Shown piece by piece: positions 15,789 to 26,799 of a stretch of 64,000 nt of DNA. Numbering within the stretch: the first letter of the stretch is position 1; every line of letters begins with the position of its first letter. Both the position numbers and the translations under genes were made by a program. The stretch is from Komagataeibacter sp. FNDCF1 (GTDB taxonomy: Bacteria > Pseudomonadota > Alphaproteobacteria > Acetobacterales > Acetobacteraceae). The notes under the pieces were generated by a model. That model saw only the letters and a program-made list of their open reading frames with translations, was not told the DNA's origin and did no database searches. Location of the stretch: contig NZ_JAIWOT010000001.1 in the NCBI RefSeq assembly GCF_021295335.1, forward strand, positions 2,265,001-2,329,000, in the 5' to 3' direction.

Positions 15789-18167
15789 TCAGAAGCTTGC
15801 GGAAATCGTGCCAAAATACTGGCGTGGCGCCCCGACAAGGGCCGACTGATCATCCCCTGTCAGCGGAAGCCCGTTTTCCCCGATCTGGGAAATATAGTGC
15901 ACATTGGCCAGGTTGTAGATGTTGAAATTGATCGTAAGGTTCTTGACCGGTCCGTAATCGCCGAAATTGTACCGTGCCCCCAGGCTTGTCATCCAGTAAC
16001 CGGGAACGGATTCATCATTCATGTAGCTGAAGTAGCGCTTTGACATATAGTTCGCATCAATATGGAACTGCGCGCCACGGAAGTCATAGGTCAGGTTCGC
16101 CTTGTACATGAACTGCGGGTACGCAACGACTTTCTTTCCCTGCAGGGCATAGGTTACACCCTGGGATGTAATATTGTTGCCGTAAGTCGAATGATTGTAG
16201 CTGATGCTGTTGGTAAACGACAGGTGCTTGATGGGCCGGATGGTCAGCAGGGCATCAACACCGTACATGCTCACGCTGCCCACATTCACGACAGTGGAAA
16301 CGGGCTGGATGATTGTCCCGCCGGTCAGGGACTGCAGGCGGTTCGAAAAATCGGCATGATAGGCGCTGAGTGAACCGGTTATGAGTTCGGAGTTATAGCG
16401 ATATCCCACATTATAGACCCATGCCGTTTCGGGCTGGATTGTCTTCTTCAGCTGGTCAAAGGTTGTCTGGTTGGACACACCCCAGGGTGAACCGAGCTGA
16501 TAGCCGCCATAGCCATAGGCTTTCATGTTGCGCGTAATATCAAAATACAGTTCATGCCCGGGCAGGAAGCGCCATGTGGCGTTGATATGGGGCAGGAATG
16601 CCTTGGCACTTGTCAGGCTGCCACGCGGCAGGTCCGTCTGGCCATTATACTCGGCATCATTCGCTGTTGCGCCACCCGTGGTCGTGACCAGCAATGACCG
16701 GAAACCGGCCTGCAGGGTCAGGTTGGGGAGCACCCTGTAGCGGTCCTCCAGATGGAACTGGAAGGTATTCGTGTTGAAGGTTTCTCCCCAGTTTTCCTGG
16801 AACGGGGTGCCAAAATTCCCCGATGCGGCATTGATCGGCGCGCCTTGGCCAAGAACAGGTTCAGAATACAGGTACTGGTTTATGGAGTACTGGTTATTTT
16901 CGTACCAGACACCCGCTTCGATCGTATGGTGCCTGATCCGGTATTTGAATGTGCTTGTAAAACCATATTTCTGGTTACCGGCAATATCGACCTGCTCGGA
17001 TAGCGGGGAGCCGTTGGGGGAAGAGGTATAGGGGGTTGTCCATGTTCCCCAGTGATTTTCAGCCTGGCCGTAGACGACGGAATCCCACTCCAGATGCTTT
17101 GTCAGGACAAGATTGAGGTTCAGCCCGCCCAGATAGTCCGAGGCATGGGTGATGCCATCATAGTATGAAACATCCTCGGCATCTGAAAAGTTGGCCAGGG
17201 CACCGGTGAAGTGCCCCTGGGCTGCGGCATAGGCCTGCGCATAATTCGGATACAGGTAATCATTCCTGTATCCCAGCTGACGGATCATGCTCAGTGACTG
17301 GTCCGCATAGTTGAACTGGGTCGCATCATTCCAGTTGAAAAAGACCTTCAGGCTGCTTTCCTGGCCGATCGGCTGCACGAGCTTGAAATTGACCTGCTGG
17401 TCGAACTGTTCCCCCGGGCCCTTCCACTTGTTGCCATCAGAACGGGCATAGGCGACCATGAACTTGGTACCCGACGCGTTCAGCCTGCCGCTATCGACAC
17501 GCACATAGGTGCGGAAGGCATCATGGCTGCCAAACATCTGCGCGACCTTGCCGCCGAATTTATCCTTCGGGTCGGAAGAATAGATATTGATGGAACCGCC
17601 AAGGTTGGTGGTCGACGGTACCGCCACATCCCCGCCGCCTTCCGATACATCCATGCGTTCTATATTGTCCGACAGGATGGCGAAGTTTATGGTCTGGCCA
17701 TTATATGTATAATAATCCTGTGCACCCAGTGGCACGCCATCCAGTGTCACGCCCAGCTGGTTCTGCTCGAACCCGCGCATGTACAGGCTGGAACCCCATG
17801 TATCAACGCCCAGCGGGTCATCCGATACGAAGTTTATGCCAGGCGTGCGCGACAGCATCATCATCGGACTGCTGCCCTGCACGAACTGGTCCATGACCGC
17901 ACGCCCCATGGACCGGACGGCACCATGGGACACGGTCCGCCCCACCGAGACGGAAATCGTCTCCGGGGCGGCACGGGCACGGGCCGGGGTGGGGGTGGCT
18001 GCAACCGGCTTCGCCCCCGTGGATCTGGCGCGACTGCCACCGTTACTGCCATTGCCGGAAGCAACATGTCGGGAAACTGTCTGGGACAGGGCGGGCAGCA
18101 TGGGAATCAGTAAAAAATAGGCGGCAGACGTAACCAGGAATTTTGGTAATGATTTCGATAGATACAT
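15789..18167 (-). CDS. TonB-dependent outer-membrane receptor near the carnitine genes
   Basis: A 792-residue receptor: signal peptide (residues 1-27, ending MLPALSQ), low-complexity Ser/Gly/Ala linker to about 65, plug domain at about 75-210 (TPGINFVSDDPLG, YMRGFEQNQLGVTLDGVPLG, STTNLGGSINIYSSDP) and a C-terminal 22-strand barrel ending in Phe. There is no N-terminal anti-sigma-interacting domain. It is a clear paralogue of the receptor at 42120-44540 (shared DSGxLNxxGT, KWKG, QVNxKLVQPIG). Ligand unknown; position suggests a carnitine- or choline-containing compound too large for porins. ATG at 18167 was chosen over an upstream one at 18275 because it begins the signal peptide. Transcribed from a long AT-rich spacer. 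Confidence 0.9.
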   Translation of the reverse strand: MYLSKSLPKFLVTSAAYFLLIPMLPALSQTVSRHVASGNGSNGGSRARSTGAKPVAATPTPARARAAPETISVSVGRTVSHGAVRSMGRAVMDQFVQGSSPMMMLSRTPGINFVSDDPLGVDTWGSSLYMRGFEQNQLGVTLDGVPLGAQDYYTYNGQTINFAILSDNIERMDVSEGGGDVAVPSTTNLGGSINIYSSDPKDKFGGKVAQMFGSHDAFRTYVRVDSGRLNASGTKFMVAYARSDGNKWKGPGEQFDQQVNFKLVQPIGQESSLKVFFNWNDATQFNYADQSLSMIRQLGYRNDYLYPNYAQAYAAAQGHFTGALANFSDAEDVSYYDGITHASDYLGGLNLNLVLTKHLEWDSVVYGQAENHWGTWTTPYTSSPNGSPLSEQVDIAGNQKYGFTSTFKYRIRHHTIEAGVWYENNQYSINQYLYSEPVLGQGAPINAASGNFGTPFQENWGETFNTNTFQFHLEDRYRVLPNLTLQAGFRSLLVTTTGGATANDAEYNGQTDLPRGSLTSAKAFLPHINATWRFLPGHELYFDITRNMKAYGYGGYQLGSPWGVSNQTTFDQLKKTIQPETAWVYNVGYRYNSELITGSLSAYHADFSNRLQSLTGGTIIQPVSTVVNVGSVSMYGVDALLTIRPIKHLSFTNSISYNHSTYGNNITSQGVTYALQGKKVVAYPQFMYKANLTYDFRGAQFHIDANYMSKRYFSYMNDESVPGYWMTSLGARYNFGDYGPVKNLTINFNIYNLANVHYISQIGENGLPLTGDDQSALVGAPRQYFGTISASF

Positions 18168-18985
18168 TTCCCATTTTCCTCTATATTTAGAGAATACGTC
18201 ATATTTATATTTTAATAATGGAAAATAACGATTTATCTTATTTTTACCGGGCAAAAAAACACAACACATCAACACGATATATTTGTTTTTATTTTTGCAT
18301 TCTGTTTTGAAAATCGTTTCCGTGAAGGAATTTACGCAAAATTCAGTCTATTTTTTACTTTTACCGGCCTTGAAATTTCGACCATGACTGCAATAAATGC
18401 AATAACTGTTCAGGGCTGATTTCTGTTGACTGCGTTTGGAAAGTATCTAACAAAATATAGATTGGCCTTTGTTTATTGCGGACATTTTTTTGAATTTTAA
18501 CGACATTTCATGTAACAGTTCATAATTATAAAAATATTATTTGTACATGTACATGGTTTATACATTTGAATTTGTTACGGGAACAGTTACAATCAGACAT
18601 TCCTGCCCAGAACAGAGCCCTCATTTCCGCGCCGGCACATGGCCTGTCAATCACGCGCGTGACCGATCATAAATCGTGTCATTGAAATAGGTTGCACCCA
18701 TGGACTGACGCGGCCAGACAGGATTCCAGTGGAATGCAATACCCCATCCCCGCGAAGCGATGACTTTGCAGGAATGGGGGACGCCAAAGAAGCGGAAAAA
18801 GGTCTGTTGCCGTAAAGACGCCAGCCCATGGAAAGCCACCCCGGATCAGGACAGCATCTGCCTGATTTCAGGACCATGCTGCCCCTTTCCAAAAAAAGGC
18901 GTGGTGCACAATCCGGCTGGCCGGTAACCCGCCACGGGCCGCACAACCGGTACGGGCAGCTTTCCGGACAACGGTCCGGGTCTAA
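18168..18985. other. long AT-rich intergenic region, promoter side of TonB receptor
   Basis: About 800 bp without a supportable gene. 18168-18630 is very AT-rich and probably carries the receptor promoter and regulatory sites. 18640-18985 has normal GC, with short inverted pieces such as ATTCCA-G-TGGAAT near 18722 and CCCCAT...ATGGGG around 18740-18780. Those resemble degraded intergenic repeats rather than coding sequence. The open frame at 18647-18946 (minus) has no recognisable motif. Confidence 0.5.
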
Positions 18986-19084: not shown

Positions 19085-20170
19085 CTAGAGTTCCTCAAAC
19101 AGGCGCACGCCAACACGTTCCATAAGCGAACGATGCGGCATCACGGGCATGTCACCATCGCGGCCCTGTCGTTTCGCGGCCCTGACCTCGCTCGGGCTTT
19201 GCCCGAACATGGCTTTGAAATGACGGGAAAAATGTGCGCAATCCGAAAACCCCGTCTCCACCGCAATCTCGGTCACGGACAGTTCACCCTGCTGGAGCAT
19301 GGAACGCGCGTAACGCAGCCTGATCAGACGGTAGAAATCGCTTGGCTTCATGCCCAGCGTCGTGTGGAACAGGCGTTCAAGCTGGCGCGATGAAATGCCC
19401 AGATAGAGCGCCAGCCGACTGATGGGAATCGGCTCGTTCATATTCTGTTCCATCTCCAGCACAGCGCGCCGGATCCGGGAATCCGTGATATGATTTATTT
19501 CATCAATCAGCGGGGGATAAGGCTGCAATAACGGGGTATTGCTCTTGGCCGGGCGATCAAGCAGCAGGACATGGCTGGCCTTCTTGGCAACCTGTCGGCC
19601 AAGGTACTGTTCAATCAGGTGCAGGGCCATGTCGGCGGCGCCCCCACCGCCCGAACAGGTGATGCGGTCACGGTCCACCAGGTACATCCGGTCGCTGACC
19701 ACTTCCTGTTCGGGAAATTCTTCCACGAAATCCTGCCTGTGGTACCAGCTGACACAACTGGCCCGATCCTGCATGACCTTGGCACGGGACAGGACGAATA
19801 CACCCGTGCAGATGCCGATAAGCGAAACACCCACACTGGCGGCGCGACGCAGATAGTCCAGGGTTGTATCGTCAACCTGACGCCGTCCATGCAGCAGGCC
19901 GCCCACCACCACGATGCAGTCGAATTCGGCCGGATTACGGAAGTCGGAATGACGGCTGATGGGAATGTCACAGCTGGACCTGACCGGCTCGGACCGGCTG
20001 TTCATGATGGTCCACTGGCACAAAATGGGGCGGCTGTTGTCATCCTTGTCCGCTGCCAGGCGCAGATGGTCGACAAACAGGGAAAAAGCAGAAAGCGTGA
20101 AGTTTCCGGCAAGGATGATACCCACCCGCAGGCGTGGGGTTGGCATGGAACTGTCAGGTTTGAAACGCAT
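19085..20170 (-). CDS. GlxA-type AraC-family regulator beside betA
   Basis: A 361-residue protein with a DJ-1/PfpI-like domain at about 15-200, whose elbow Cys is retained (LIGICTGVFVLSRA), and a C-terminal AraC domain at about 235-335 (ISRLALYLGISSRQLERLF, VTEIAVETGFSDCAHFSRHFKAMFG). It is the most GbdR/SouR-like by eye: CVSWYHRQDFVEEFP and DRDRITCSGGGGAADM are typical of the betaine/dimethylglycine-responsive group. It is codirectional with and 178 bp downstream of betA, after a GC-rich hairpin, so it likely has its own promoter. Candidate activator of choline or betaine genes; the exact ligand is not determinable. The start at 20170 has AGGGG nearby. Confidence 0.82.
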   Translation of the reverse strand: MRFKPDSSMPTPRLRVGIILAGNFTLSAFSLFVDHLRLAADKDDNSRPILCQWTIMNSRSEPVRSSCDIPISRHSDFRNPAEFDCIVVVGGLLHGRRQVDDTTLDYLRRAASVGVSLIGICTGVFVLSRAKVMQDRASCVSWYHRQDFVEEFPEQEVVSDRMYLVDRDRITCSGGGGAADMALHLIEQYLGRQVAKKASHVLLLDRPAKSNTPLLQPYPPLIDEINHITDSRIRRAVLEMEQNMNEPIPISRLALYLGISSRQLERLFHTTLGMKPSDFYRLIRLRYARSMLQQGELSVTEIAVETGFSDCAHFSRHFKAMFGQSPSEVRAAKRQGRDGDMPVMPHRSLMERVGVRLFEEL

Positions 20171-20316: not shown

Positions 20317-20349
20317 GCAGGGCGGGCCCGCCAGAGGGGACCGCCCTGC
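20317..20349 (-). terminator. GC-rich hairpin after betA
   Basis: GCAGGGCGG (20317-20325) is the exact complement of CCGCCCTGC (20341-20349), which touches the betA stop codon. No T-tract follows on the minus strand. It may attenuate read-through into the regulator or stabilise the betA mRNA end rather than act as a full intrinsic terminator. Confidence 0.4.
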
Positions 20350-22004
20350 TAGCGCTGGTGCGTCATCCAGTCGGGCGCCTGATAGAACGGCGCATTCGAT
20401 GCGGCCAGAAGCGGGCGGCCCAGGATATGGTCGGCCGCCTTTTCCCCTATCATGACCGTCGGTGCGTTCAGGTTCCCGTTCGTGACCTGCGGCATGATAG
20501 AGGAATCCACGACCCGCAGCCCCTCAAACCCGATCACCCTGGTTTCACTGTCCACCACGGCCATGGGGTCATCAACCCGCCCCATCTTGCAGGTGCACGA
20601 AGGATGCAGCGCGCTTTCCACCTTATCACGCACAAAGGCATCTATCTGTTCATCGGTAACGCAATCCTGACCGGGCTGGATCTCCTTTCCGCGGAAGGGC
20701 GCGAACGCCTCCTGGGAAAAAATCTCCCGCGTCAGGCGCACACAGGCACGCATTTCCGTCCAGTCATCCGGGTGGCTCATGTAATTGAAGAAGATGCGTG
20801 GCTTGTCTGCCGGGTCAGGAGAACGCAGCCGCACCCATCCCCGGCTTTTCGAGCGCATCGGCCCGACATGCGCCTGATAGCCATGCCCGCTGGCCAGTCC
20901 TTTCCCGTCATACGTGACCGCCAGCGGCAGGAAATGGAACTGGATATCAGGATAGGGAATTCCGGCCCGGCTGCGGATGAAAGCACAGCTTTCAAAATGG
21001 TTGGTCGCGCCCAGCCCGTCCTTGCGCAACAGCCAGCGCAGTCCGATGGCCGCCTTGGACACGGGATTCATGGCGGAATAAAGGGTGATGGGCTGCTTGC
21101 ATTCAACCTGGAAATAGAATTCCAGATGGTCCTGCAGGTTTTCCCCCACGCCGGGGCGGTCCGCAATCACCTCGATACCGTGCGAACGCAGTTCCTCCGC
21201 CGGTCCAATGCCTGAAAGCTTCAGCAACTGCGGGGAATTGATCGACCCGCCGCACAGGATGACTTCCCGGCGCGCGCGTACCGTATGTTCCGTTCCGTGC
21301 CGCCGGTAAACGACACCGACCGCCCGCCGCCCTTCGAACAGGATGCGGGTGACACGGGCATGCATCCGCAGTTCCAGGTTCCTGCGCGACAGCGCCGGAC
21401 GCAGATAGGCATTGGCCGTGTTCCAGCGACGACCGTTCTTCACGGTCATGCTCATCTTGTCGAAACCTTCCTGCCGGAAGCCGTTGTAATCGTCCGTGCG
21501 GACATAGCCCGCCTGCTCCCCCGCCTTCAGCCAGGCGGCATGCAGGGGGTTGTCCACCGTGCCGTACTGGGTATGGAGCGGTCCATGCCGGCCACGGTAC
21601 TGGTCGCTCCCTTCATGGCAGGATTCGGCACGGCGGAAATAGGGCAGCACGTTGCGATACCCCCATCCGCTTGCGCCACTTTCCTCCCAGTTCTGGAAAT
21701 CCAGCGCATTGCCGCGCACATACACCATGCCATTGATGGAAGATGACCCGCCCAGCCCCTTGCCACGGGGGGCATGCAGGCGCCGACCGCCCAGATGGGG
21801 TTCCGGTTCGCTTTCATAAAACCAGTTGAACCGCCTGCTGTGCATGGGCATGGCCAGCGCGGTGGGCATCTGGACGATGATGGAACGGTCACTGCCGCCA
21901 AATTCCAGCAGAAGGGCAGTATGCTCACCGCTTTCCGTCAGGCGGTCGGCCAGGACGCAGCCGGCGGAACCGGCGCCAACTATGATGTAATCGAATTCGG
22001 TCAT
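20349..22004 (-). CDS. betA: choline dehydrogenase
   Basis: A 551-residue GMC-family flavoenzyme oxidising choline to betaine aldehyde (and able to go on to betaine), membrane-associated and linked to the respiratory chain. Visible marks: FAD motif [17 protein letters not shown] at the N-terminus, the GMC signature [18 protein letters not shown] near residue 85, and the C-terminal catalytic region [13 protein letters not shown] with [13 protein letters not shown]. Length is normal for BetA. The ATG at 22004 (MTEFDY) was chosen over 22025 because it directly begins the FAD fold and has CGGAAAG upstream. It lies 21 nt after the BetI-BetB fusion gene and is surely cotranscribed with it. Confidence 0.95.
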
Positions 22005-22025: not shown

Positions 22026-24116
22026 TCAGTACGGTGCTTCAACATTGCCCAGCGCGACATAAACGCTCTTTACCTGCGTATAATGTTCCAGCACCGCCCG
22101 GCTGTTTTCACGCCCCAGCCCGGACTGCTTGTATCCACCAAAGGGGAGTTCGATGGGCGTTATGTTGTACTGGTTGATCCAGCACGTGCCCGCTTCCAGC
22201 CGTGCGACAACCCGGTGCGCCCGCGCAAGGTCGGACGTGAACACACCCGCCGCCAGGCCGAATTCCGTGGCGTTGGCACGCTGCACGACGTCATCTTCGT
22301 CAGTAAAGTCGAGCACGGCCATGACAGGGCCAAATATCTCCTCACGCACGATGCGCATGTCATCACGACAATTCACGAAGATTGTCGGTTCGACAAAGGC
22401 ACCATGGGCAAGGTCCCCCGTGGTGGCCCGGCCGCCACCCACCAGGAGTGTCGCCCCTTCCGCGCGCCCCACGTCGATATAGGACAGGACCTTGTGCATG
22501 TGGTCCTGCGAGATCAGGCTGCCGACATCCGTTTCCGGCAACAGGGGATCACCGATGCGCATGCGCTCCACCCGCGCCTTCAGCGCGGTCAGGAAACGCT
22601 CACGGATATCCCTGTGTACAAAGACCCGGGTGCCGTTGGAGCAGACTTCGCCCGCGGAATAGAAGTTCGCCAGCAATGCCGCGGACACAGCGTTATCTAT
22701 ATCCGCGTCATCAAAAATGATCAGCGGGGATTTGCCGCCCAGTTCCAGCGTCACGTATTTCAGGGTGCGGGCCGCATCCGCCATGACGGCACGCCCGGTC
22801 CCGACTTCGCCTGTCAGGGATATCTTGCGGATTTCCGGTGCTGCCGTCAGCAGGCGCCCTGTATCGCGCGCACCCTGTACCACGTTGAACACGCCATCGG
22901 GCAGGCCGGCCAGCCTGTATATCTCGGCCAGCTTCACCGCCGTAAGCGGCGTCAGTTCCGCCGGCTTGAAAATCATGGCGTTGCCACAGGCCAGGGCTGG
23001 CGCGGATTTCCAGCAGGCAATCTGTATGGGGTAGTTCCATGCCCCGATCCCGGCCGTGATGCCCAGCGGTTCACGACGGGTGTAGCCGAACGCCTCCTCA
23101 CCCAGGTCAACGGCCTCGCCATTGATGGTGCTGGCGACCGAGCCGAAATATTCAAGGGCATCCGCGCCGGACAGGATATCGACGGTACTCGTCTCGGCAA
23201 TGGGCTTGCCTGTATCCTGCGTTTCGATATGGGCCAGTTCCGCATTGTTTTCACGCAGCAGTTCCGCCGCACGGCGCAGGACACGCCCCCGTTCCGTTCC
23301 TGTCATCCGGGCCCAGACCGCCTGCCCCCTGCGCGCGCTTTCGATTGCAAGCGCGATTTCCGTCTCGCCCGCACTTTCCACCTGCGCCAGCACGGCACCG
23401 GTCGCGGGATTGATGGTGGGGAAACGCGCACCGCTGGAACTGACATACCGGCCATCGATCCAGCTCTGGCAGACCGGGGGTGTAACGGGCGATATGACCG
23501 GTACGGGCGGGGCCGCGCCGTTCACCGCCGCGATCTGGCTGTCGATAAAGACATTCACCTGCTGGCGTGCCGTCTGGCTGTCGGTTTCCTTCCATTCCGA
23601 CAGGGCGGCCCGCAGCCATGTCCCGTCAATCAGCGCCGACATGGAACGGGCCAGCACCGCGGCCTGCGCCCGTGGCAGGTACGCACCAAGCGCATGCCGC
23701 AGGTTGGACAGCATGCGCTGCTGGTAGACACGCTGGATACGCTGCAGGGCGGGTACATAAGGCGCCTGCCCCCAGAACGCCAGCCATACCGCCCCCGTGC
23801 GCGGCTGGAACTGGTTTGTTCCAAGGCAGCTTTCTATAATGGCCTGCACGCGCTCACGCGGGGTCCGTGCCTCACGCAGGTTACGGATGACTTCGTGCTG
23901 CAGGTTGCCTGCGATATGCCGGAAGGCGGCCGCAAGCAGTGAATTCTTGTCCTCGAAATAATGGACCAGAAGACCGGGGGACACATTCGCATGCTCGGCA
24001 ATGCGGGCAAAGGTCGTGCCCGCGTACCCATACTGGGCAAGCACATCGAGTGTCGTATTTACAAAACTCAGCCGACGTTCATCTTCCGGTCTGGGTAAAG
24101 AAGAGGACTGACGCAT
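22026..24116 (-). CDS. betIB: BetI (TetR-type repressor) fused to betaine aldehyde dehydrogenase BetB
   Basis: One uninterrupted frame encodes 696 residues. Residues 1 to about 193 are a complete BetI: helix-turn-helix [35 protein letters not shown], and the ligand domain ending [17 protein letters not shown]. After a Pro/Val-rich linker (about 195-215) comes a full BetB aldehyde dehydrogenase: [37 protein letters not shown] with catalytic Glu, [16 protein letters not shown] with catalytic Cys492, and [14 protein letters not shown]. BetB makes glycine betaine from betaine aldehyde with NAD; BetI represses bet genes until choline binds. Normally these are separate genes. No stop or ATG lies in the linker; an in-frame GTG at about residue 201 could allow a separate BetB. 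Two BetI-like operators lie upstream, and betA follows. Confidence 0.88.
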
Positions 24117-24154
24117 AGGAAAAATCCCGATCTGGGTATGGAGGCCGATTTCGT

Positions 24155-24170
24155 TGAACGTTCGTTCAAA
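24155..24170. promoter_or_regulatory. BetI-like operator 1
   Basis: TTGAACG-TT-CGTTCAA is a dyad with perfect 7-bp arms, 39 bp upstream of the betI-betB start codon. TetR-family repressors such as BetI bind sites of this size and symmetry. A second, one-mismatch copy lies at 24321-24336, which strengthens the case that this is an operator. Autoregulation by the BetI half of the fusion is inferred. Confidence 0.7.
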
Positions 24171-24871
24171 ATCGTGGCGACATCACAGACTTCATCGCGG
24201 AATCGCATTTTATCCTTGTTCTGGTCCGCCATTTTTTTGAATTATTCCGAAGTTCATAACGATTCTGTTTCGTTTCATGCCATAAGGCATCTCATCGGAT
24301 CGGGCATGGCGGAAACTTTTTTGTACGTCCGTTCAATCACGATATCCGTTCCGGCGCCTGATTCCATGGCGCAGGACCATACGTGATCTTCTTGATATTA
24401 TATAAAATAATACAATGGGTTAGAGGCATACAGGACACATGCCGCACGATGCCGGAACCGGGCCTGACGCCTTGATGCTCCGGCCTGTGTGGCGGGGTGC
24501 GGAAGGAATCTGCCCAAAAAATCATCAATCAGGGGAACGGCCATACGCCGTGCCGTATCAGGATCGGCTGCGGGCAGACCTGGAACCGATTCGCCTTCTA
24601 TCGGGAAACGGATTTCTGTCACTGGCAGGCAGGCGCCTCCCCTGAACCGGTCATCCTGTCCGGCAGGTACGATCGCCTGGAATCACGGCCCCTGCGTAAC
24701 CTGCGCGCACGGGGTGGCGACAGAGGGGCGCATGACGGCATGGCGGCTTCCGGGTGGAAGCCGCATTTTTATATTATGACGAAGCGATGGATGGAACAGG
24801 CTGCCCGAAACATGCCCCCTGCCGGAACCAGCATGGGGACAGGCCCGCGCCAGGCCTGTCCCACCCATGGA
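24171..24871. other. intergenic region upstream of the bet operon, no convincing gene
   Basis: About 700 bp between the bet operator and the end of the alcohol dehydrogenase gene. It holds the second operator and AT-rich promoter-like sequence up to about 24420. The remainder has only unrecognised open frames, such as a 74-codon minus-strand frame at 24398-24622. The two operators with nothing recognisable transcribed rightward suggest either one promoter with two sites or a lost divergent gene. Confidence 0.45.
24321..24336. promoter_or_regulatory. BetI-like operator 2
   Basis: TTGTACG-TC-CGTTCAA matches operator 1 at 14 of 16 positions and keeps the two-base centre; six of the seven arm pairs are complementary. 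It lies 166 bp further upstream. Two sites at this distance would allow looping, or separate control of a rightward promoter. Confidence 0.6.
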
Positions 24872-25987
24872 TCAGAATTCGACCACGGTGCGGATGCTCT
24901 CGCCCTTCGCCATCATGTCGAAGCCTTCGTTGATGCGCTCGAGCGGCAGCTTATGGGTGATGAGACTGTTGATGTCGATGCGGTTTTCCATGAACCAGTC
25001 CACGATGCGCGGCACGTCCGTGCGCCCGCGCGCGCCACCGAAGGCCGAACCGATCCAGCGCCGCCCGGTGACAAGCTGGAACGGCCGCGTGCTGATTTCC
25101 TGACCCGCCCCGGCCACGCCGATCACGGTGGACACGCCCCAGCCACGATGCGCGCATTCCAGCGCCTGGCGCATGAGCGTGGGGTTGCCCACGCATTCGA
25201 ACGAATAGTCGACGCCGCCGCCGGTCATTTCCACCAGATGGCCGACCAGGTCGCCATTGGGGCCAAGGTCCTTCGGGTTGACGAAATCGGTCATGCCGAA
25301 CTTGCGGGCAATCGCCTCACGCCCGGGGTTGATGTCCACGCCGATGATCCGGTCGGCGCCAACCATCTTCGCCCCCTGGATGACATTCAGCCCGATGCCG
25401 CCCAGACCGAACACGGCCACCGTGCTGCCTGCCTCCACCTTTGCGCTGAACAGCACGGCGCCGATGCCGGTGGTCACGCCGCAGCCGATGTAGAACACCT
25501 TGTCAAACGGTGCGTCGGGACGGATCTTCGCCAGCGCGATCTCGGGCAGGACCGTGTAGTTGGCAAACGTGGAGCAGCCCATGTAGTGATGGATCGGCTG
25601 CCCCTTGAACGAAAAGCGCGACGTGCCATCGGGCATGAGCCCCTTGCCCTGCGTGGAACGGATGGCCGTGCACAGGTTGGTCTTGCGCGACAGGCAGGAC
25701 TTGCACTCCCGGCATTCGGGCGTATAGAGCGGGATCACATGGTCACCGGGCTTCAGGTGCTTCACACCCGGGCCCACTTCCACGACCACGCCCGCGCCCT
25801 CATGGCCCAGGATGGCGGGGAAAAGCCCCTCAGGGTCGGCGCCGGACAGGGTGAACTTGTCCGTATGGCACAGGCCGGTGGCCTTGATCTCGACCAGTAC
25901 TTCACCCTCGCGCGGGCCTTCAAGCTGTACCGTCTCGATTTCAAGCGGTTTGCCTGCTTCAAAGGCAACGGCTGCCCTTACATCCAT
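24872..25987 (-). CDS. frmA: S-(hydroxymethyl)glutathione dehydrogenase / class III alcohol dehydrogenase
   Basis: A 371-residue zinc alcohol dehydrogenase of class III. Catalytic zinc ligands are in ATGLCHTD and GHEGAGVV; the structural zinc loop is [17 protein letters not shown]; the NAD motif is [15 protein letters not shown]. Length and sequence fit glutathione-dependent formaldehyde dehydrogenase. Its place right after the betaine and dimethylglycine demethylation genes makes sense, as each demethylation step releases a one-carbon unit as formaldehyde. The ATG at 25987 has GGAGAAAG upstream; 47 bp separates it from etfB, so it may be cotranscribed. An esterase (FrmB) is not seen nearby. 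Confidence 0.94.
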
Positions 25988-26034
25988 ATTCTTTCTCCAG
26001 AGATTGTATTGAACCCATGCCGCAGGGGCCCGGG

Positions 26035-26799
26035 CTACCGGTTCACGGACAGCACACCCAGCATGACCAGATGGTCCACGATCGCCTGTGCGGCATCCTG
26101 TGGTGACGGATCCACCATGACCTGCCCCCCCGCGATCGTGGCCTGCGCCTGTATCAGGCGTGGACGGACACGGTAAGGGCGGGACTGCACGTTCATGTCT
26201 GCCGTATCGGCACGCGGCATGGCGGGAACGTCCACCGCCTGCGCGCACACGGTTGCCGCCCGCATGCGCGCAAACGCGAAGGGCGGCACGGTGGGCGCCA
26301 TGTTATGCACGCTCAGCACGCATGGCCCCCGCACCTGCACCTGACGGCGCACACCACGGGGCAGGGCCTGTTCCACTTCCAGCAGATCAGGGACCTGCGT
26401 ATCGCGTGACGCATCAATACCGACAATATCGGCTACTACCGGCCAGCCAAGCGCATGCGCCAGCGCATAGGGGAACAGGCCGCTATCCTCACCACCCGAT
26501 GCGCGCCGCGCGGTCAGGACCAGATCGACCGGCCCATCGGCAAAGGCCGCACCGGAACGGATATAGGCCGCGACCGTATCGACCGGGTCCGCATCGCCCG
26601 CCTGCAGCGTGACAATCCGGTCCAGCCCGTATCCGCCATATTCCCTGATACCCGGTGCCGTGACCGCGCCGACATGGACACCGGCCAGACTGTCCGCCAC
26701 GCTCAGCCCCATGCCGATCGCCCGTATTTCTCCCGCCACCGGGGCGGGGCGGCCGGACACCTTATCCAGCCCGGCCGACAGCAGCACAATCGCGCGCAT
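26035..26799 (-). CDS. etfB: electron transfer flavoprotein beta subunit of the dimethylglycine dehydrogenase system
   Basis: A 254-residue EtfB-like protein: [14 protein letters not shown] start, a central [12 protein letters not shown] segment, [29 protein letters not shown], and the recognition-loop area [26 protein letters not shown]. Together with EtfA it binds FAD/AMP and should carry electrons from DgcAB to the quinone pool. It follows etfA by one base. It diverges strongly from housekeeping EtfB, as do the ETF proteins of Pseudomonas dgc clusters, and is best read as a dedicated pathway ETF. Confidence 0.85.

Follow-up and report, generated by a model that had tools for sequence, protein, structure and literature searches.

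Introduction

PutA, which acts in proline utilisation, carries a repressor domain and the enzymes that it controls in one chain, among them an aldehyde dehydrogenase (ALDH)-type domain; its DNA-binding part is a ribbon-helix-helix domain, and it works through a flavin switch together with membrane binding. The GabR/MocR regulators join a helix-turn-helix to an aminotransferase fold that is used for sensing, and to our knowledge none of them carries, within its chain, an enzyme of the pathway that is still catalytically intact. Betaine aldehyde dehydrogenases (BADH, BetB) are tetrameric and TetR proteins are dimeric. BzdR is described as an XRE domain joined to a domain that derives from shikimate kinase and has lost catalysis, and rebuilt intermediates have served as the basis for arguing how an enzyme passes into a transcription factor (PMC3602430). 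For the choline repressor BetI, another report gives ATTGACG*CGTCAAT as the BetI1 box of R. pomeroyi, describes the release of ordinary BetI by choline, and places Ruegeria BetI2, an ordinary BetI, on two overlapping palindromes (PMC12442346).

Here we analyse a 64 kb stretch of DNA from Komagataeibacter sp. FNDCF1 (64,000 nucleotides; hereafter the window), in which a BetI repressor and a BADH had been predicted to form a single protein. In a literature search with thin coverage of subscription journals, no title or abstract opening among the matches listed described a BetI–BetB or TetR–ALDH fusion.

Results

Repressor and enzyme form a single chain

The original prediction had a complete TetR-type BetI running in frame through a linker into a complete BADH with an intact Glu and Cys492. 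Translation of the open reading frames gives a stop-free frame of 696 codons with exactly the predicted extent, and domain profiles place both halves within it (Table 1), the Aldedh domain of Pfam covering residues 225–685. Among the NCBIfam models, residues 1–211 pass the BetI profile PRK00767 (NF001978; 182.1 bits, cut-off 118) and fall slightly under TIGR03384, also a BetI profile (195.6 bits, cut-off 201.3), while the BADH half passes both NF009725, over its full length (797.8 bits, cut-off 593), and TIGR01804 (692.5 bits, cut-off 668.6). The PRK00767 score and a BetI-box-like operator ahead of the gene assign the first half to BetI. Both predicted residues are present together with a third (N361, E458 and C492), the trio that we take from family knowledge to be catalytic. 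By domain content the chain is thus an enzyme joined to a DNA-binding repressor, as in trigger enzymes of the PutA kind; its catalytic residues being retained, it is not of the BzdR kind with a dead enzyme domain, a description that fits only nine of its relatives (see below).

The frame stays open through the linker, with neither a stop nor a frameshift, and relatives carry homologous fusions. Since such fusions exist, a chance open frame, a frameshift and a sequencing or assembly error are ruled out; the fusion is real. A clear Shine–Dalgarno sequence was not seen on reading before the first ATG, so the exact start of betIB is unsure. The structure model of the window protein (pLDDT 74, pTM 0.52; residues 650–696 poor) found ALDHs as its matches in the PDB and, being a monomer, is uninformative on the tetramer. 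Elsewhere in the same genome, other aldehyde dehydrogenases are at most 41% identical, and there is one other TetR match, at 29%. In two K. saccharivorans plasmid records the match to the fusion falls under a single feature labelled only 'betB', an annotation by one half that conceals a regulator.

Table 1. Features of the betIB locus, in window coordinates
Feature	Position	Strand	Basis
betIB, fused BetI repressor–betaine aldehyde dehydrogenase	22026..24116	-	single open frame, 696 aa; profile domains; fused relatives
BetI half, residues 1–197	23526..24116	-	domain profiles and alignment of 19 fused BetI halves
TetR_N helix-turn-helix	23925–24056	-	residues 21–64, Pfam
TetR_C_6, BetI-type	23532–23861	-	residues 86–195, Pfam
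Linker, about residues 198–218 (~20)	23463..23525	-	without ATG; model confidence low at 201–210
BADH half, residues 216–696	22029..23471	-	BADH profiles matched end to end
Glu458 codon	22743–22745	-	within BADH half
Cys492 codon	22641–22643	-	within BADH half
Proximal predicted operator	24154..24169		perfect half-sites, 53 to 38 bp upstream of ATG
Distal predicted operator	24321..24336		1 mismatch, 167 bp from proximal
betA, choline dehydrogenase, directly downstream of betIB	20349..22004	-	profile match
AraC-family regulator, GbdR-like	19085..20170	-	202.7 bits, under curated cut-off 480

Start-type codons around the linker were tabulated in 30 fused genes. Within residues 178–235 of the window protein the only ones are two GTGs, neither of them preceded by a Shine–Dalgarno-like match, which disfavours the internal GTG start that had been named as a route to separate products; judged from these signals, the window is unlikely to yield BetI and BetB separately through an internal start. 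Four of the 30 genes (L018, L022, L044 and L070) have no start-type codon in the linker region, and the first BetB segment is lost in L070 and lost in part in L044. An in-frame linker ATG stands behind a Shine–Dalgarno-like match in L024, L026 and L030–L033, where it is perhaps a relic of an old betB start and where a second product is possible. At L133, L135–L137 and L149 the BLAST match begins at BetB residue 11–17, suggesting a loss at the junction like that in L070.

Gene neighbourhood

The ATG of betA lies, by reading, 21 bases past the betIB stop, and betA comes next after the fusion at 73 of 74 complete active loci for which 900 bp or more of downstream sequence was available, Kaistia L199 being the single exception. 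On the other side, 755 bp separate betIB from the next upstream frame taken as a gene (24872–26248, same strand; by reading). Frames read between 24872 and 31973 as a class III alcohol dehydrogenase and as ETF-like, DgcB-like and DgcA-like proteins would fit glycine betaine breakdown. Upstream of 84 fused loci (near-duplicates counted, 1.4–12 kb of sequence available), a divergent choX was found in 55, in one case 2.8 kb from the fusion, a TonB receptor gene in 3 and neither in 26, the window among these. The TonB-dependent receptor gene divergent to the fusion on a K. saccharivorans plasmid (L040, 8925–11285) shows 84% identity to window 15789–18275; a role of this receptor in the uptake of a choline compound is possible.

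The fusion belongs to a family

The first reading treated the fused protein as one odd protein; the protein stands, its singularity does not, as it belongs to a family with catalytically dead members. The search for a single TetR–ALDH chain that had been proposed yielded 99 fused frames, of which 88 are distinct, the window included. Spread was surveyed with the window protein as query at E ≤ 1e-150, in samples that overlap and with weaker BADH genes uncounted. Matches were found in 40 of 397 Acetobacteraceae genomes, 25 of them full-length fused frames without a stop (window included); the remaining 15 are not full-length fusions, one being cut by a contig start and one having the BetI end only. 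Among Alphaproteobacteria 49 of 385 genomes matched, three with a fused frame without a stop (window included) and five whose full-length matches contain one or two stops and so represent neighbouring separate genes; the phylum sample gave 111 of 398, with four fused (window included) and 11 full-length matches containing stops. All 16 genomes that matched, out of 198 from the family of Ancylobacter, carry the fusion. Komagataeibacter itself gave a match in 2 of 19 sampled genomes, window included; the fusion of the same-genus genome G017 has match figures equal to those of the K. saccharivorans plasmid copy.

When named genomes were scanned with only the BetI part as query, the best 80 of at least 584 loci were covered. 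A script called both halves in frame at 51 of the 80, some of them contig-cut, one frameshifted (L096) and one with a degenerate ALDH (L121); four further long frames (L108, L123, L138 and L147) consist of BetI and a degenerate ALDH, contig ends cut L092 and L141, and L102 is broken. The holders of the fusion include Acetobacter, Gluconacetobacter, Azorhizobium, Ancylobacter, Kaistia, Aureimonas, Methylobrevis, Novosphingobium and Sphingorhabdus, as well as several records titled Gammaproteobacteria MAG.

Phylogenies were quick trees with many open forks, the BetB tree being the less tidy. The BetI tree places all 69 active and all nine dead fused rows in one clade (fork support 94), joined there by three rows whose unfused label reflects a contig cut or a broken fusion. 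On the BetB tree, 67 fused and 61 unfused rows require 7 label changes, a count that leaves out the nine dead and ten near-duplicate fused rows; unfused rows lie inside its fused clade, and Novosphingobium L122 lies outside. We claim from these trees that the fusions cluster together, a single origin event being unproven. The locus L122 (5006–7054) groups with the fusions by its BetI half and with unfused enzymes by its BetB half, through either a domain swap or a long-branch effect. At L035 (1306–3144) the frame retains only the BetI end, from about residue 138, ahead of BetB, and no helix-turn-helix match was found in that locus.

Predicted operators of a distinct spacing, often paired

The site predicted near 24155 is present, with a spacer of 4 rather than the usual 0. 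This predicted fusion-type operator, TTGAAC-N4-GTTCAA, is distinct from the form at separate betI genes. With at most two mismatches, the window holds four matches, at 24154 (0 mismatches), 24321 (1), 19365 (1) and 15331 (2), against a mean of 1.00 in the shuffled window, where four were reached in 1 of 100 shuffles; with at most one mismatch, the whole genome holds ten against four for a reversed control, and the sole perfect one is that at 24154. The proximal site is conserved across four aligned upstream regions, the distal site only partly. In three upstream alignments of 4, 4 and 6 sequences, the operators are among the conserved stretches, and there are other conserved stretches too.

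We compared the best site within 500 bp upstream of 81 active fusions, 9 dead fusions and 45 unfused betI genes. A spacer-4 site with at most one mismatch precedes 42, 8 and 2 of them, respectively, and one with two mismatches precedes 32, 1 and 4; only a spacer-0 site with at most one mismatch, the usual unfused form, was found at 2, 0 and 25, and no operator at 5, 0 and 14. Some fusions have both spacer-4 and spacer-0 sites. Operator half-sites mostly lie 4 bp wider apart in the fusion clade than at ordinary betI genes.

Pairs of spacer-4 sites 60–250 bp apart (observed 66–205) precede 39 of 81 active fusions, 8 of 9 dead fusions and 2 of 45 unfused genes, in a search biased to the fusion-type spacing; at this strictness no pair was found in 42 of the 81 active fusions, and the controls (50 dinucleotide shuffles of each group, the gene interiors and the reversed pattern) gave no pairs at all. 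A lax weight matrix gives at least two sites at 68 of 81 fused, 8 of 9 dead and 8 of 45 unfused genes. Paired spacer-4 operators are also present at L120 (5965–8141), an unfused betI and betB neighbouring the fusion clade, so the operator change may predate the fusion, or L120 may have split later. Nor are two sites unique to fusions, because Ruegeria BetI2 reportedly uses two overlapping palindromes (PMC12442346).

In the first 47 operator pairs a period near 11 bp was prominent among the seven periods tried, and a lineage-kept null reached this signal in 11.7, 4.7, 0.4 and 0% of draws at cluster cut-offs of 0.55, 0.65, 0.75 and 0.9. A period of 11.0 bp was not supported by thirty held-out pairs that the weight matrix supplied (p about 0.25); the best period tried on them, 11.5, had p about 0.02 with a different phase, and the lineage-kept null stood at 13 to 77%. 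Helical phasing was dropped as proof of looping, its signal not having been replicated in the held-out pairs.

Relatives without catalytic residues

The catalytic Asn, Glu and Cys are all retained in 75 of the 88 distinct fused frames; nine are without Asn and Cys, and four are cut. The nine dead fusions belong to Methylorubrum/Methylobacterium (five: L138, 5971–7941, plus strand; L147; L194–L196), Kaistia (three: L121, L123 and L201) and one MAG (L108). They occur in 5 of 59 Methylorubrum/Methylobacterium genomes, and the 14 Kaistia genomes hold three dead and three active fusions, a possible contig-cut one in G1211 not being counted; on the BetI tree the dead label needs three changes. Where examined, eight of the nine have choline transport genes adjacent or nearby. 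The dead fusion of Methylorubrum suomiense (L138) lies divergent to choX and choW; further along are betA and a separate gene for BADH (821.8 bits), and L147 has its separate BADH and betA in the same places. A BetA match of 54–56% was found in each of the five Methylobacterium-type genomes, and in four it shares a contig with the fusion. Among the Kaistia genomes, the three that carry a dead fusion have a divergent choX upstream and no BetA match above 47%; those with an active fusion have a match of 70–71% in two and of 48% in the third (G1216).

Omega for the BetI half is 0.11–0.36 in dead pairs versus 0.07–0.35 in active pairs. For the ALDH half it is 0.36–0.56 in seven dead pairs versus 0.07–0.22 in active pairs, with 0.33 in one active–dead pair, and the upper 95% limits in the five bootstrapped dead pairs are 0.48–0.72; the MAG form L108 was left out of these tests. 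In the pairs tested, the dead ALDH half is therefore under constraint and has been kept, more loosely, after the catalytic residues went. The predicted structure of L138 (pLDDT 80) comprises BetI and an ALDH fold, with a target TM of 0.67–0.75 to the PDB among the 50 matches listed. In the alignment the dead forms are without the stretch aligned to SLTGEVGTG, presumably part of the NAD site, which makes NAD a less likely signal in these forms and speaks for a scaffold or a different ligand. On this comparative evidence the dead fusions are likely pseudoenzyme regulators, and their retained ALDH half is the strongest hint that this half may serve the repressor in some way. The alternative is slow decay, and the relaxed omega means that part of what is seen may be decay.

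Discussion

The single-chain repressor-enzyme that was predicted is borne out: it is conserved, adjoins betA and faces BetI-type operators. We think it probable, though by no means assured, that betIB encodes a bifunctional repressor-enzyme in which the ALDH half contributes to regulation too, as a scaffold or a sensor. The BetI half would bind the operators ahead of its own gene, giving autoregulation, and in many relatives would also bind in the interval that separates the fusion gene from the divergent choX, which encodes a choline transporter; choline would bring about its release, as has been reported for ordinary BetI (PMC12442346). The ALDH half would oxidise the betaine aldehyde produced by BetA, and the amounts of repressor and enzyme would be inseparable because both are one chain. 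As a scaffold for oligomerisation, the ALDH half would place two BetI dimers in each particle, which could then occupy paired operators; it is possibly a sensor as well, and an effect of aldehyde or NAD occupancy on DNA binding, originally suggested by analogy with PutA, is a candidate mechanism. With BADH tetrameric and TetR proteins dimeric, each fused tetramer would present a pair of BetI dimers and might engage two operators, and the oligomer mismatch may be the point, as many fusion promoters have two operators. Lineages of the Methylobacterium and Kaistia types have apparently given up catalysis, and there the protein would persist purely as a regulator. A bolder form of this proposal, which we put forward tentatively, is that the ALDH tetramer clamps two BetI dimers, bridges the two operators and loops the DNA, with betaine aldehyde or another ligand in the ALDH sites tuning the clamp and with catalysis lost in at most three lineages, leaving a pure sensor or scaffold; living bacteria would then hold every stage from enzyme to transcription factor. 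DNA looping by the fusion particle is a plausible hypothesis.

The paired operators admit another account, in which one represses betIB and the other the divergent choX and no tetramer bridges them. We take this as a serious possibility, short of an even chance: a divergent choX lies upstream of most fused loci, and the Methylorubrum sites are each near one gene start. The account fares less well when loci are matched for choX. Pairs precede 26 of 47 fused, all 7 dead and 2 of 21 unfused loci that have a divergent choX no further than 1.5 kb away; at loci without one in that interval they precede 12 of 31, 0 of 1 and 0 of 17, so that pairs track the fusion beyond choX alone; these counts come from a search for the fusion-type spacing, and spacer-0 pairs number 2 of 81 active and 2 of 45 unfused. 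The distal site is, moreover, kept in the window, in Acetobacter L083 and in K. saccharivorans L009, though choX was not found there or lies 2.8 kb off.

It is rather unlikely, in our judgement, that betI and betB simply merged by loss of a stop and that the halves work as they would alone, the ALDH half having no regulatory part and the benefit being fixed stoichiometry or none. Such a merger agrees with the unfused relatives G558, G610 and G440, where neighbouring betI and betB share a frame that a single stop interrupts, and with the usual features kept in both halves, but it does not predict that operator pairs go with fusions, nor that constrained ALDH halves lacking catalytic residues are found on a live repressor in Kaistia and Methylobacterium. 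The dead fusions could be genes on the way out and no regulators, which the relaxed constraint on the ALDH half, the early end of L108 (582 codons) and the absent BetA orthologue in the three Kaistia forms would suit; we consider this unlikely, as eight of the nine dead forms are near full length, operators with at most two mismatches precede all nine, their BetI half is constrained about as in active fusions, and the upper limits on ALDH omega (determined without L108) stay at 0.48–0.72. Processing of the long protein, or additional synthesis of BetB from an internal start, so that the working BetI and BetB are separate, would find a foothold in the linker ATGs of L024, L026 and L030–L033; the GTG-only linker of the window, the four genes with no start-type codon in that region and the BetB segment gone from L070 and partly from L044 make it highly improbable.

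Because separate, fused-intact and fused-dead forms coexist with conserved operators, each evolutionary step is testable, and the dead-enzyme lineages with a live switch half may show an enzyme becoming part of a gene regulator. The fusion also offers a clean system for asking whether the tetrameric build of an enzyme can set DNA looping by a TetR dimer.

Among known systems, PutA offers a reasonable analogy for betIB by domain architecture, with the difference that the fusion pairs TetR with BADH and has no flavin domain. GabR/MocR regulators are alike in joining a helix-turn-helix to an enzyme fold. With BetI of E. coli, Sinorhizobium and Ruegeria the fusion shares TetR_N and TetR_C_6, a match to the BetI profile, related half-sites and a place beside betA and choline transport. 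Unlike ordinary BetI, it is covalently joined to BADH, whereas E. coli plasmid records give betI and betB apart, its operators are often paired, and the gap from TTGA to TCAA is 8 bases in the fusion operator versus 4 in the R. pomeroyi BetI1 box (PMC12442346). The dead fusions resemble BzdR in joining a DNA-binding domain to an enzyme-derived domain without catalysis; the BzdR intermediates were rebuilt as chimeras, whereas separate, fused-intact and fused-dead BetI–BetB are all natural (PMC3602430).
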